Positions 16,720 to 23,877 of a DNA stretch of 64,000 nucleotides are shown here, in pieces. Within the stretch, counting starts at the first letter, position 1. Each line of letters begins with the position of its first letter. Origin of the DNA: Rhizophlyctis rosea (taxonomy: Eukaryota > Chytridiomycota > Chytridiomycetes > Rhizophlyctidales > Rhizophlyctidaceae); NCBI GenBank assembly GCA_027596075.1, contig JADGJC010000129.1, positions 1 to 64,000 of the forward strand. The letters are read 5' to 3'. The position numbers and the translations under genes were made by a program. The notes below the pieces were generated by a model that did not search any database, was not told the DNA's origin, and worked only from the letters and a program-made list of their open reading frames with translations.

Positions 16720-18316
16720 ATGGAAACCGCAGAGGCATTACCAAACGCTGACTACCGTGCTGTCGAACAAACAGCTCTCAAGAATGGCCTTCCCATCCAA
16801 ATGCATCTGACAACGGCATCGCCACTTCCAATGCATCCGGCATCTGTGCCAATGGACTGGCGGGCGAAAGATGCAATCTCTCGAATGGATATGCTACACG
16901 AAGGTGTCGGCTTCGTCCCTCCTGTCAATGCCCCAACCATGCCGGTTGCTGCCGCCGCCGATCCAGACTCGCTACGATTCCCCGCTGAACATCCCGAACC
17001 CCACGTACCGCCAGCCAAAACTCGCCGTGGACTGGACAAGAATTGGCATCCGAAATACGTTTGCCACTCACCTGGATGCAACAAGACTTTTACAACAAGG
17101 TAAACGACTGAAGCATTGCGTCTCACGTCCTTCTTAACATGGACTGACTTCCTTCTGCCATAACAGCGCCCACCTTTCTAGACACGTCAAACTCCACATG
17201 GGCATCAAACCTCATAGATGTCCAATCCCGGACTGCGGCAAGGGCTTCGCTAGAAGAGACAACATGATGGTACACTACCGAGCTCACACCCGAAAACTGG
17301 GCCTGACAGCAGCAAACAAGGAACCCGCACCAACGCGGTATAGAAATCCAGCAACAACAGCCGTACGAGGTCGCCAACCATCATACCATCCTCCTCCCGA
17401 ACACGCATACGGCAACTACTACCCCCAAGAACCATACGGCTACTACCCCTACGAAGGACCAGGCAACTACACATTCAGCCCACGACCAGCTCGAAACATG
17501 GTCGGATACCCCGGCGCCCACCAACTCTACGAAATGCACGGCCCCTCAGCCTACACACCCCGCGGCAGCCTCTCCTACGCCCAACGCATGCAAATGATGG
17601 AACAATGGCACCAACTCGGTGGGTCGCAAGCCGGATCACCCCCAGCTGGAATGATACCCGACCAACCACACCCCAACCCACACCCACACCTCGCTCACGG
17701 TCCGCTCCCGTCAACTCCGCACTCCAACCAGGCGTCACAGGGTATTAAGATGGAACAGCAGCAGCAGCAACAACAACAACAACCGGATCTTGAGGGGTCT
17801 TTGGAGAATTATGCGTTGCCGATTGCGACGGAGGCGGGGAGTGCGCCGCCGTTTTCGTATCATTCGTTGATTGCGAGTCCGCATGCGCAGGCGCATTCCA
17901 GTGGACAGCAGAGGTGGGGTCCGTCTAGTGCGACGGGGATGGAGGGGTATCAGCAGGGGGAGGGGGAGGGTGTTGGTGTTGCTGTTGAGTCCGACGTACC
18001 GTTCGTTGCTCATCCTACTGCGGCGGAGTCGGGTGACGCTCCTACTGAAGAACCGTCGGTGGAGACTGTTGGGGATGTTGAGGCTTCTGCTTTGCCTCCG
18101 GCGCCCATGGAGGGCGATATGGTGGATGGTACCGTTGCGGGCGCGGGGGATGAGGCGGTTGAACGGAGTTTATCGGAAAGCGTGACGCCCCCATCACCTA
18201 CTTCTCAACTGCAACAAGCGTACACGAACTACCCCAGCGAGTCGATCGACGTGCAGAATGAGGGTGATGGGGAGGTCGGGGCGTTGGATGGTGGGAATGA
18301 CTTGGTGCAGTTTTAG
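16720..18316 (+). CDS. C2H2 zinc-finger transcription factor
   Basis: 509-residue protein in two exons (16720-17099 and 17167-18316). The intron falls inside the first finger. Two tandem C2H2 fingers occupy about residues 114-170: YVCHSPGCNKTF...HLSRHVKLH, linker MGIKPH, then RCPIPDCGKGF...NMMVHYRAH. The C-x4-C spacing with a GCNKTF / DCGKGFARRDN core is typical of fungal sequence-specific DNA-binding regulators. The fingers are preceded by an Ala/Pro-rich N-terminus and followed by Tyr/Pro/Gly-rich sequence, a glutamine run (about nine Q near residue 320) and an acidic tail, as expected of activation regions. The targets are unknown. The start METAEALPN is the first in-frame ATG; an additional 5' exon cannot be excluded. 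Confidence 0.85.
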
Positions 18317-18876: not shown

Positions 18877-20052
18877 CTAACATCCCCTCACTCTAACGTT
18901 TGCATTGATCATTGAGAATTCGAGCATGTTGTAGTCGTCAAAGGTGCGATGATCATCCAAAAGTTTTCCTCCAAATTCCCAAAACACGTCATGTGGGTGT
19001 CCCATCTTGCTAATGATATTCTTAGCGGCCCCGATTGTGTGCTTGGAGGTCACTGAGAAAGGAATGCGTTTGCGGCCGAGGATGCAGGTCATGGGCATGC
19101 GTGGCAATTTGGTTGGGTTGGTGATGTTGTGTAGGAATCGCTTGGTGTTGAGGGGTTGCAGGAAGCGCCAAATGGTTTCGACCTGGTGTTTGTGGGGTTT
19201 GTCGGTTGAGTGAGTGGATGATGACTGGGTGAGGAAAGAAACGATACGCACCTCGCAGTTGTTGCATCTGTTGCCGCATTTGCAATTCATGATGCAGTGC
19301 CCGTGGAAGGCATGCTGGATTTGGTGGATGAAGTGAGTGAGTGATCGTTCCTATGTATCCTCTCAGACATGCGAGGTTCAATACATACTTCACATGTTCC
19401 ATGGACGATGAAACAGTTCGTTATATCAGCTTCCGAATTTGCTTCACACTTTGCACCTTCATAATTAGACAGGATCATTTACTTTCTGTGAATGGGAGAC
19501 AGCACATAACATATGGGAAACATACATGCGACCATCAGCGAGTTTCCACAGAGAAGACATTCGGTCTCGGTGGAGTTGAGGAGCTCAATATCATGCTCAC
19601 TGGTATCTTTCGATAGAGTAGGTTTCAGAATTGTATTTGTGGGGTACGTTGGATGAAGTCTTACCTTTCCAGTTGGTTGGCCTCCCTCCATGCCGAGCTG
19701 GTTCTTCTCCTTTCATGTTCCAGATGTCCAATGGGGGCTTCTCTCCAAAGTGTAGCTCATACGCCGCCAACATCATCGTTCTCCTCTTCTCTCTGGCTGC
19801 TTCATCTTCACCTCCATCGGGGTCATGGTGAATGTCCATATCAATGTCGCGCAAAAATTGCTGGTAGGCGCGGGTGTCGAGGATGTGCTGATGCCAGCAC
19901 TCATCAATCAATGGTGACGCAGAGAGAAACTTGGCGTCCGTGTCCTGCAATTGGGTTTTCAGGACTAGGAAGCATTTGTATTCATGGATGAAACGGGAGG
20001 GTGCATTGGAATCGGAGCGCTTGATGCGTTGCTCGAGAGTTGTGAGGTCCAT
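18877..20052 (-). CDS. WHxHILDT domain - RING-H2 - ubiquitin-like protein, paralogue A
   Basis: 301 residues from five exons: 19665-20052, 19526-19606, 19389-19456, 19252-19314 and 18877-19182 (minus strand). N-terminal domain (about 1-110): KFLSASPLIDECWHQHILDT, then [19 protein letters not shown], then AAYELHFGEKPPLDIW. It resembles the WH-rich motif of GRDP/DUF1399-type proteins, but I cannot name it securely. RING-H2-like region (146-200): CLLC, CAKC, then C-E-H-AF-H-GH-C, ending CGNRC and CNNC, with the C-x-H-x2-H-x2-C core intact. C-terminal ubiquitin-like domain (about 229-301) starts MPMTCILGRKRIPFSVTSKH and ends VRVRGC, so the Gly-Gly is lost and the Ile44 region is altered (FWEFGGKLLDD). 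It is probably a ubiquitin ligase with a ubiquitin-like tail. Sequence before the ATG continues in frame (KIDHVLN) and resembles paralogue B, so a short 5' exon is probably missing from this model. Confidence 0.75.
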
Positions 20053-20659
20053 GTTGAGGACATGGTCGATCTTGTTTGCTACAGTGTGGTTGGTAGTGGG
20101 TCATATTAACGGCCTATACTGCGTGTGCAACGAGGAAGTGGGAAGAGACTGGGAAATTACAGCACATTTAAGAACATTTATGGTAGTCAACGGAATCGCT
20201 GCGCTAGTGGACAAGACTGAAACCATGGGAATGCGAAAGTTTTGCGTTGTTCGATGATGCAGGTTGGCCATGCCCGGGGTGGGACCCTGACTGGGACCCT
20301 CGCGCGCTTCTTTGTCTTGTCTGAACTTAATTCAGCTTTTGATCCTGCCAGCATCATCGACTTCCAGCCCTTCTTCACCATTCGTCTGCTGTAATGTTGA
20401 TTGTGTTTGAAACGACTTATATTTCAGCCTTTCGCCGTGTTGCGTCATTCACACAACAAACACAAATTCGCTCCACATGGGATGAGTCATCGAACAGTTG
20501 TGCATCCATACGCACATTACGCTACTGCGATACTATTACAAAACTTTATACAACAATCTTTAAATGAAACTCTATCAAATCAACGTTTACAACCATATCC
20601 CAGAAGTCCAAACCCCTAGAATCACAAGAGCGGCATCTGCACCACCCCACCATCACCAA
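20053..20659. other. Intergenic between the tandem paralogues
   Basis: Promoter and 5' region of paralogue A and 3' region of paralogue B. A GTAATTTCC donor near 20160 and a CTGTAG acceptor near 20080 mark a probable 5' intron of paralogue A. Confidence 0.4.
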
Positions 20660-22232
20660 TCAACATCCGCCCATCCTAACGACGAGATGAACAGTGCACT
20701 CATCCTCAATCAAGTACTGCCCAAGAGTACGAGGATCTTCCAACTGACGCCCTGCAAAGATCATCCGCTGCTGACAGCAGGGAACACCGGTCTCATTTTG
20801 CACAAGATGCTTGAGGGCCCAGACGGTGTGTTTGGATGTCACGGAGAAGGAGACGGTCTTGCCGTTTAGCGTTCTGACGTGTATGCGCATGCGGGGCAGT
20901 TTGGTGGGTATTTGGGTGGAGTGGGTTGATGGATCCTCTGTTTTGACTCGCTTTTGGAGGTGATGGGTTTGAGGGGTCTGAGTGATAGAGGAGTGGTGGT
21001 TGGAGACTGTTGAGGAACGTTTCTCCGCGATGTTTTGCATTGAATAGATGTCAATGAATGGGGGGACATACGTCAGGACTGTCAAATTTGGGAGTGGCTT
21101 CCAACCATTTAGCAACGCAGTGGCGGTGGAAGGCGTGCTGTGAATGTTTAACAATTAACGGCCAATGAGTGTTTTTCTCCGGAATCAGGGAAAAATAATG
21201 ACAATATAGCAATAGGCATGACTTTTCAAGTTAACATCACGCACATCATGATATTCCCCGAGAATGTTACAATCTTCGGCGCCGTGTTTGCATTCTGGGC
21301 CTGCATGTAGGGATAAGGAATTGGTGAGTGATGTGCAACATGTCGATGCCTCAAGAAAAGGAAGACCTACAGGACACTACTAGTAAATGGCCACAAAGAA
21401 GGCAGTCGCTGTCAGAGGTGATTTTCATGTTTTCGCGGTCTTCCGTCGGATCTACTCGAGCCATTGAGAGACTGAAAGAAGTGATGATCAAGGGTAAAGT
21501 GATTGTTAGCATTTCTGCGCTGATTTTCCGGGGACTGGTAGCATGAACCTTACCATGGACAAAGATTATCGGCATTCCAACACGTTCGTCATCTGGCACG
21601 GTGGCCGGCCGGTAAAACACTCGTTGTATCCCTTCGTTTGGAACATCTATCCATCTCTCCTCAACTCCCAAATCCTTCAAAGCAATAGTCGCCAACCATT
21701 GCACGAACCAAACGCACACGTAGTACACCGCCGGTCGATGCGCAACGCGCAATGAATCCAAGGAGGGACGAATGCAAACCGCCTTCGAACCACCTTCGTA
21801 CTTCCGCTTCACAGTCTGCTCAGGAACCACAGCTGTCTTCACCCCACCCATAGCCCAAATATCCGTAGGCGGCTTCTTTTTAAAGTACAACTCATACGCA
21901 TTCAGCGTCATTTTCCTCCTCTTATCCCTCGCCACCTCATCGTCACCTCCATCAGGATCATGATGAATTTTCATACCAATGCAACTGAACATTGCATCAT
22001 ATGCGCGGGTGTCAAGAATATGGTTGTGCCAGCACTCGTTGATCAGTGGGGAGGGAGAGAGGAACTTTGCGTCTGTGTCGTTGAGTTGGATTTTTACGGC
22101 CAGGAACCGTTTGTATTCGGTTACGAGACGGGCTGCTGCGCGTGGTTCGAGGCGCTTGAGGCGGTTTTGGAGGGAGGTTAGGTCCATGTTTAGGATGGAG
22201 TGGACCTTTTGGGTGATATTTTCGTCGCTCAT
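20660..22232 (-). CDS. WHxHILDT domain - partial RING - ubiquitin protein, paralogue B
   Basis: 399 residues from exons 21554-22232, 21371-21451, 21245-21300, 21072-21137 and 20660-20977. Exon 2 is 81 bp in both paralogues and all phases agree, which supports the model. N-terminal domain: [20 protein letters not shown], then [19 protein letters not shown], then PPTDIW (about 15-126), followed by about 100 residues absent from A. The RING-like region from residue 243 has CLLC, C-PE-C, HAFHRHC and the WL typical of RING-H2, but I find no final C-x2-C. The C-terminal 76 residues (324-399) align without gaps to ubiquitin: [15 protein letters not shown], then [17 protein letters not shown], then [11 protein letters not shown]. 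Leu8, Ile44, His68 and Val70 are kept, as are Lys11 and Lys27. Lys6, 29, 33, 48 and 63 are R, L, E, R and D. The end is Gly-Gly-Cys. The acceptor before the last exon is the least certain junction. Confidence 0.77.
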
Positions 22233-22439: not shown

Positions 22440-23877
22440 ATGTCACATCACGCCCTTTTATCATTCGGCTTCAACGGTCACAACCAATCCCACGTGCCCA
22501 AAAGTCAATCAGATGGAAAACAAGTAGGAATCGCCGCCCCAACAGCCTCCATACTCCTCCGCACCACTCACCCCAATCAAATTTTGGGCGTGTCTGCAAC
22601 CTGGGCCACTTCCTTCGCATGGACGACTGAGAATAGGATATACCTCTGGGGCTGGATTGCGCCTTACCGATATGCGTTGCAGGATGAGTCTTATCGGCAG
22701 AAACGACGTGAGGGAGAGACTGGTGGAGCAGAAGATGAAGACCACTCGGAGAAGGAGGTTGGGGAAGGTTACATCCAACTGTCTTCTGACATTCTCGGAG
22801 ACGGTGGACGCATCATCCAAGTCATTGCATATTCTCCACCATTAGAATCCACTCCTCCGTCAACCCCACCAGCCTCATATCCAATCTATATCCTTACAAG
22901 TACAGGACTGTGGACGTTGACACCCTCTCCGCTTCCTTCAAATTCCACACCAGGTCCGACCAGTGGCAACACCCTGAAACGAAAACGCGATTCATCCAAA
23001 CTTCCCAAACCAACACCAACATATACCCCCATAATAAGATCCACAACACTCAAATCCATCTCCCTGACCAAATCCCATATCCTCATCCTGACACAATCCG
23101 AAACATTACACTCTCTTCCCCTCCCGCGTACATCGCAAACCACACTCCCAGACCCCCCATCCATAACACCAATCTTCACACACATCTCGACCTCCCCTTC
23201 CCACGCCCTGCTTTTGGTGGAGAGCGGTGCTGTCCACTCATATGCAGATGGTCCGGTGGGAGGATTGTACGGGCAGTTGGGGCATGGAGTTATGGGTGAT
23301 GATGGAGACGCAGGTGAAGTTGGGAGAAATGATCATAGCAGTAGTAGTTCAACACCGAGGATCAAAATCATAGAGGCACTCCATGGTCTTACGTCCGTTG
23401 GTGTTTCTGCTGGAGGATGGCATTCAGCTGTGGTTACGATAGATGGTGATGTGTACACTTTGTGAGTTCCTCCTTCATGGCTTGATGGAATTGTTCCAGC
23501 CACATCTCACATTATTCCATAGCGGTTCAAACACCCACCACCAACTAGGCACCTCACAATCAACAACCAAAAACACCGCTCTACCAACACCTATTGACCT
23601 CCCACCCGATGTAGATATCACGCCTTACACCAGTCATTCCCCTCCGCGGATTTTCATGTCCTCAGGATCACATCATACGCTTTTAGCCACACCTGCTGAG
23701 CTGTTTGCGTGGGGGTGGAATAAGTGGGGGCAGTGTGGAAGTGGAGGGGAAGATGGGGAAGGAGAGTTTGTGAAGGGGTCACGGAGAGTGGATTTACCGG
23801 TGCTTGGGGAAGGGCAGAAGATTGTCGGGGTTTTTGCGGGGTGGTGGCATTCGTTGGTTGTTGTGGAGTATGATTGA
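22440..23877 (+). CDS. RCC1-repeat (beta-propeller) protein
   Basis: Two exons, 22440-23461 and 23523-23877, give 458 residues. RCC1-type repeats are visible as [105 protein letters not shown] and [14 protein letters not shown]. The opening LLSFGFN and the WHS motifs resemble RCCD1-like proteins more than the Ran exchange factor itself. The middle (about 120-260) is Ser/Pro/Thr-rich and interrupts the propeller. Its role is unknown; RCC1 folds serve as interaction platforms and some as guanine-nucleotide exchange factors. The last part of its coding sequence may be overlapped on the other strand by the METTL14 homologue. Confidence 0.85.

Follow-up and report, generated by a model that had tools for sequence, protein, structure and literature searches.

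Tandem genes of a fusion family joining a GRDP-like domain, an RBX1-type RING and a Gly-Cys-ended ubiquitin-like domain in Rhizophlyctis rosea

Two tandem genes and their relatives in the genome

We analysed a stretch of 64,000 nucleotides from the chytrid Rhizophlyctis rosea (positions 1 to 64,000 of contig JADGJC010000129.1, assembly GCA_027596075.1; hereafter the window), and describe two tandem paralogous genes on its minus strand at 18877-22232, gene B (22232-20660) and gene A (about 20076-18877). Each was modelled with five exons (Table 1). An earlier sequence-only reading of the window had reported adjacent same-strand paralogues with common exon phases and an 81-bp second exon; we find the pair as described, with matching phases, phase 1 at either end of the 81-bp exon, and the sequence motifs that the reading quoted. 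Both genes encode an N-terminal domain carrying the signature WHxHILDT, a RING and a C-terminal ubiquitin-like domain (UBL). This order had also been proposed from the sequence, and it recurs at two other places in the genome, here called C1 and C605.

The family was surveyed in the one assembly (44.1 Mb, 634 contigs). With the N-terminal domain of gene B as query, we obtained 11 matches at 10 places, and a second query returned the same 10 places. At four of the 10 (A, B, C1 and C605) the N-terminal domain, RING and UBL follow one another in that order, and two more (C627 and C284) are decayed versions with remnants of all three parts. Elsewhere the N-terminal domain stands in other settings: it shares one open frame with an RRM at C602 (L014, 1740-2984), is joined to a weakly UBL-like end at C621 and to other sequence at C22, and is broken at C13, where neither a RING nor a UBL was seen. 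An eleventh locus, C318, has its contig start inside the RING, with the UBL downstream.

In two copies, C1 and C605, a single open frame runs from the RING end through the UBL, uninterrupted by an intron. Because the order recurs on other contigs and these two copies have the RING end and the UBL in a shared frame, the fusion order goes beyond chance; the shared frame also ruled out unrelated neighbouring genes as its explanation. The anatomy of genes A and B is very probably that of a GRDP-like / RBX1-type RING / UBL fusion, and the family is a new ubiquitin-system fusion. The sequence-only reading knew of no described family of this kind, and a literature search covering open-licence PMC papers likewise found none with the order GRDP-like domain, RING, C-terminal UBL.

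Sources of the N-terminal domain and the RING

The N-terminal domain, which the sequence-only reading had called unknown, turned out to have distant relatives. The Pfam GRDP-like family PF07173 (gathering cut-off 22.7 bits) was not matched up to E 10 by B, C1, C621 and C602, nor up to E 1 by A, and the C22 copy scored 12.7 bits, under the cut-off. Scanning viral sequences with the profile of the family gave 82 pattern matches, among which a single relative was found, a protein on a phage contig (L037) that scores 26.9 bits with PF07173, over the cut-off, and that hhalign aligns with the family at a probability of 96.8 and an E-value of 2.4e-10. This protein has four GTDB relatives; two were compared with the family by hhalign (E 2e-12 and 1e-15), and none of the three scanned with Pfam reached the PF07173 cut-off (22.4 bits, 12.7 bits and no match). 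The AlphaFold2 (AF2) model of the domain, built from six sequences, is all helical, with a predicted local distance difference test (pLDDT) of 84.3 and a predicted template-modelling score (pTM) of 0.81. The best Foldseek match of this model in BFVD is a Harvfovirus protein named GRDP-like (E 3.2e-4, probability 1.00, template-modelling (TM) score 0.70); solved structures gave no convincing match. Glu-Tyr, Trp-His-x-His, Leu, Thr, Tyr, His-x-Pro and a last Tyr are invariant across the two window rows, the phage row and three bacterial rows. Judged from profile alignments and the predicted fold, the domain is a distant GRDP-like homologue with bacterial, phage and giant-virus relatives.

Over ten pairs of N-terminal domains, the proportion of synonymous differences (pS) is 0.52-0.76 and that of nonsynonymous differences (pN) 0.18-0.34; the corresponding rate ratio (dN/dS) is 0.12-0.37 in nine pairs, near saturation, and the tenth is saturated. 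By this measure the domain is clearly under constraint.

The GRDP-like protein at L037 (2920-3474), on a phage-like IMG/VR contig, has a Cys/Gly/His-rich tail. At a separate locus in the genome (L034, C84), a six-frame match to PF07173 of 41.1 bits contains one TGA and is followed downstream by a Cys/Gly-rich open frame.

What the sequence-only reading had termed a RING-like middle is a RING, and its type can now be given. Spliced RINGs of A, B and C1 were scanned with zf-rbx1 (cut-off 31 bits), and all three exceed the cut-off, at 33.7, 33.7 and 60.2 bits, respectively; RBX1 itself scores 89.2, and scanning exon by exon gave poor scores. The canonical RBX1 of this genome (C281) has four introns in the region, the first of phase 1 in an Asp codon six codons before the first zinc ligand, the second of phase 1 in the Cys codon of the third ligand, the third of phase 0 before HAFH and the fourth of phase 0 four residues past a Trp. 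As established partly by inspection, positions and phases are kept for all four introns in C1, for the first three in A, B and C627, for the first three and the last in C605 and for the last in C318; gene A has no intron at the fourth place. The length of exon 2 is 51 bp in RBX1 as in C1 and C605, but 57 bp in C627 and 81 bp in A and B, where the first intron, with phase and Asp codon unchanged, is displaced from the first Cys by a further 2 (C627) or 10 (A and B) codons. From the RBX1-type scores together with the shared intron positions and phases, we therefore conclude that the RING is, as far as sequence and gene structure can tell, an RBX1-type RING-H2 that descended from RBX1 with its introns.

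APC11 was considered as an alternative donor of the RING and ruled out by introns, although the RING of gene B scores slightly higher with zf-ANAPC11 (36.8 bits) than with zf-rbx1. The gene at C33, which we take to be APC11-like from its motifs, has an open frame across all four RBX1 intron places.

The family lacks the segment WNAVALWAW, which RBX1 encodes in the exon ahead of the first shared intron; the GRDP-like exon stands in its place. Passages in PMC9507964 describe the N-terminal strand of RBX1 as inserting into the cullin. With a GRDP-like exon in place of this strand, the family would not be expected to bind cullins in the canonical way.

Gly-Cys ends of the UBLs and details of the gene models

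UBLs could be read in six copies (A, B, C1, C605, C284 and C318); the C284 gene is broken but its UBL frame is open, and C627, whose UBL is broken, was left out. Matches to PF00240 are strong for B (E-values of 2e-22 to 3.6e-23), C1 (1.7e-18) and C318 (3.5e-17), and moderate for A (1.2e-6 to 1.8e-7). All six end in Gly-Cys-stop, with Cys at the position of ubiquitin Gly76, and their tails read RVRGC (A), RMGGC (B), RLGGC (C1), RLCGC (C605), RLRGC (C284) and KLRGC (C318). A Gly-Gly pair occurs in two of them (B and C1), before the terminal Cys and never at the very end. Pairwise identity among the UBLs is 21-44% and identity to ubiquitin 27-57%. Five of the 73 filled columns in the six-row alignment are invariant, namely a Pro before the domain, a Lys, a Gly, the final Gly and the final Cys, and the terminal Cys is the sole invariant column with a ubiquitin counterpart at which the family departs from ubiquitin.

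This ending sets the family apart within its genome. Gly-Cys-stop was found at none of 17 other UBL loci detected with the gene B query, some of which are single exons or internal UBLs; among them L056 reads Arg-Cys-stop and L047 was not read to its end. The genome's own polyubiquitin ends RGGL-stop. With the C318 UBL as query, four of 26 matches extend through the terminal Cys, and these are C318 itself, C1, C605 and B. Because the tails end in Gly-Cys, self-conjugation through Gly-Gly is disfavoured, and the family UBL is probably not a Gly-Gly donor, judging from its residues.

NEDD8 was tried as the source of the UBL, and the origin could be placed only at the level of the ubiquitin family. 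With NEDD8 as query, the UBLs of C1, C605, B and C318 were matched at 32-45%, and unconnected fragments were hit at C5, at 74% over 23 residues and 70% over 27.

Another group of UBL proteins in the genome was noted at L033 (C164), L045 (C56), L046 (C106) and L051 (C471). In these an internal UBL ending in ..GG is followed by a common segment, FVDL..GS..APRW..GL.VEG.C.N..C.A, with RING-like cysteines downstream at C164.

Some boundaries of genes A and B have more than one solution. The start of gene A is uncertain, its first in-frame ATG being at 20052, and so is its last intron, across which the frame stays open without splicing. Exon 1 of gene B has two candidate donors, both of phase 1, a weak GTGGTT after 21794 and a stronger GTAAGG after 21554; the 80 codons between them (21554-21793) are open in frame and could either belong to the coding sequence or lie within a long intron. 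The last zinc-ligand codons of gene B read VCPPIH-stop in the genome, and they are removed only with the GTATGT donor at 21071.

Table 1. Modelled exons of the tandem genes, in positions of the window
Feature	Position	Strand	Content
Gene B exon 1	21794..22232	-	GRDP-like (WHxHILDT) domain at 22232-21843
Gene B exon 2 (81 bp)	21371..21451	-	first RING cysteines DCLLC..VVSC; phase 1 at both ends, as in RBX1
Gene B exon 3	21245..21300	-	middle of RING; phase 0 end before HAFH, as in RBX1
Gene B exon 4	21072..21137	-	followed by GTATGT (donor), or by VCPPIH-stop if unspliced
Gene B exon 5	20660..21022	-	linker and UBL (20890-20663); end VVRMGGC-stop
Gene A exon 1	19665..20076	-	GRDP-like domain (20076-19708)
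Gene A exon 2 (81 bp)	19526..19606	-	first RING cysteines ECLLC..MVAC
Gene A exon 3	19389..19456	-	AKCEANSEADITNCFIVHGTCE
Gene A exon 4	19252..19314	-	HAFHGHCIMNCKCGNRCNNCE
Gene A exon 5	18877..19182	-	linker and UBL (19098-18880), diverged; end NVRVRGC-stop

The neighbours on the plus strand are a frame with C2H2-like zinc fingers, under Pfam cut-offs, at 17138-18316 and an RCC1-like frame at 22509-23465, which starts divergently beside gene B.

Proposed mechanism, alternatives and known systems

We read genes A and B as members of a GRDP-like / RBX1-type RING / UBL family whose products would be cullin-independent RING proteins with a non-conjugable ubiquitin mimic, and we put the probability of this reading at roughly one half. 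Under this proposal, the family would have arisen from an RBX1 copy that gained a ubiquitin-derived exon at its 3' side and whose RING exons became linked, through a phase-1 intron, to a GRDP-like exon. The GRDP-like domain would take over targeting or scaffolding from the cullin, and the RING, which is best preserved in C1, would recruit a ubiquitin-conjugating enzyme (E2); the UBL would imitate ubiquitin non-covalently, in cis or together with partners, and could not be attached through Gly-Gly. The conserved terminal Cys would have some function.

Several observations weigh against this proposal. The exon models were built solely from splice signals, frame and the comparison of copies, the spread of the family was judged in this genome alone, and the RING of gene B leans slightly to zf-ANAPC11. 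Structure prediction, suggested in the sequence-only reading for each domain, was poor for the UBL of A, where the AF2 model has low confidence (pLDDT 54). The UBL is also fast-evolving except in its last two residues: over ten pairs pN is 0.36-0.55, and dN/dS is 0.20-0.74 in seven of them, the other three (0.00, 0.00 and 0.03) being at or near saturation. Furthermore, with zinc ligands and E2 face numbered as we take them to be in human RBX1, the RING is decaying in several copies. That of gene A keeps the 12 ligand positions, with Cys at the last, but lacks the Trp and Pro of the E2 face; that of gene B has His at one ligand and, with the modelled splicing, loses the last two; in C605 one ligand is altered and CPGD is preceded by a break in the frame or an unresolved intron; several ligands are missing from C627, and two RING exons from C284. 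Ubiquitin ligase (E3) activity is possible for C1, and doubtful for B, C605 and C627 because their RING ligands are lost or broken. That at least one copy of the family is an active E3 is conceivable from the sequences, at somewhat less than even odds.

The same damage could mean that most copies are dying pseudogenes and that the fusion has no present function, since C284, C627 and C13 are broken and the RINGs of B and C605 are damaged. We regard this as unlikely: dN/dS of the N-terminal domain is low, C1 keeps all 12 RBX1 zinc-ligand positions, and Gly-Cys has been kept in UBLs that have otherwise diverged widely. The sequence-only reading had proposed that the protein is a ligase conjugating its own ubiquitin, that is, a UBL processed to a C-terminal Gly-Gly, charged by the ubiquitin-activating enzyme (E1) and put on targets by its own RING. 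The Gly-Gly of B and C1 precedes the terminal Cys, so a deubiquitinase could in principle cut off one residue, and Arg72 is kept in five of the six UBLs, with Lys in C318. This claim nevertheless gives way to the tail residues and is now very improbable, as the Gly76 place is Cys in every one of the six, A, C605, C284 and C318 end VRGC, LCGC, LRGC and LRGC without Gly-Gly, and without the Cys the tail of B or C1 would fall one residue short of that of ubiquitin. Entry into the E1 pathway is still open to some position-76 variants: according to a review passage (PMC7056813) that cites the G76A study among others, dehydroalanine-76 ubiquitin is processed by the machinery.

Two further explanations give the terminal Cys a specific role. 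Prenylated membrane-anchored ubiquitin-fold (MUB/UBL3) proteins provide a model for a lipid anchor, and one conserved Cys on a flexible tail would suit lipidation; we consider this highly unlikely, given that the UBL ends, all xGC-stop, hold no CaaX box and that the CC/CxC geranylgeranylation signals fit only C605 (CGC). Alternatively, the UBL could sit, in cis or in trans, in the place of donor or distal ubiquitin, its Cys76 forming a disulfide with the catalytic Cys of an E2 or a deubiquitinase and so blocking or sensing that enzyme in a redox-dependent manner. To our knowledge, disulfide trapping of the G76C type is otherwise known only as a laboratory trick. A natural G76C ubiquitin with an RBX1-derived RING might then amount to a built-in false donor, in which a reversible disulfide serves as a redox switch of the ubiquitin/NEDD8 system, an idea to which we give a small chance. 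It draws on the singular departure of the family from ubiquitin at Cys76, on the adjacent RING, which would bring an E2 close, and on passages in PMC10619426 and PMC4734694 in which laboratory ubiquitin G76C is disulfide-linked to catalytic cysteines of E2, HECT and deubiquitinase enzymes. A reducing cytosol is unfavourable to such a trap, E2 binding may have been lost by the RINGs of B and C605, and in the text of PMC10619426 the reactivity of G76C varies greatly among deubiquitinases and is nil for some; trapping through Cys76 is accordingly rated as improbable.

If the proposal of a cullin-independent RING protein with a ubiquitin mimic holds, an RBX1 descendant would have been released from cullins by exon shuffling, a route from a subunit of cullin-RING ligases to a stand-alone protein. 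A UBL would also have had its terminal Gly swapped for a Cys that was retained while the rest drifted, which raises the question of the role of Cys76. Either outcome, a cullin-free RBX1 descendant or a Cys-ended UBL, would surprise a specialist.

The family shares parts with several known systems. Parkin and other RBR ligases likewise carry a UBL and RING-type ligase domains on the same polypeptide, but their UBL is N-terminal and their RINGs form a RING-IBR-RING array, whereas the family has a C-terminal UBL, a single RBX1-type RING and a different origin. In UBA52/RPS27A and polyubiquitin a ubiquitin-family domain also lies within a larger protein, at the front and freed at Gly-Gly; the family UBL comes last in the chain and ends in Cys. 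With RBX1/ROC1, the RING-H2 subunit of cullin-RING ligases, the family has in common the RING sequence, the zf-rbx1 score, the intron positions and phases and, in A and C1, the zinc-ligand layout, but it lacks the cullin-binding N-terminal strand and carries a GRDP-like domain in front and a UBL behind. The GRDP-like/DUF1399 proteins of plants, bacteria, phage and giant viruses share fold and motif with its N-terminal domain, and the domain-RRM fusion at C602 resembles plant GRDPs as described in parts of PMC4299439. The family domain differs from these proteins in falling under the Pfam cut-off, A and B have no glycine-rich tail, and the passages on GRDP-like/DUF1399 proteins in the open-licence PMC papers searched mention neither a RING nor a UBL. 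Engineered ubiquitin G76C, as presented in passages of PMC10619426 and PMC4734694, has Cys in place of Gly76 just as the family UBL does; it is a laboratory reagent, whereas the family UBL occurs naturally, has diverged and is part of a RING fusion.

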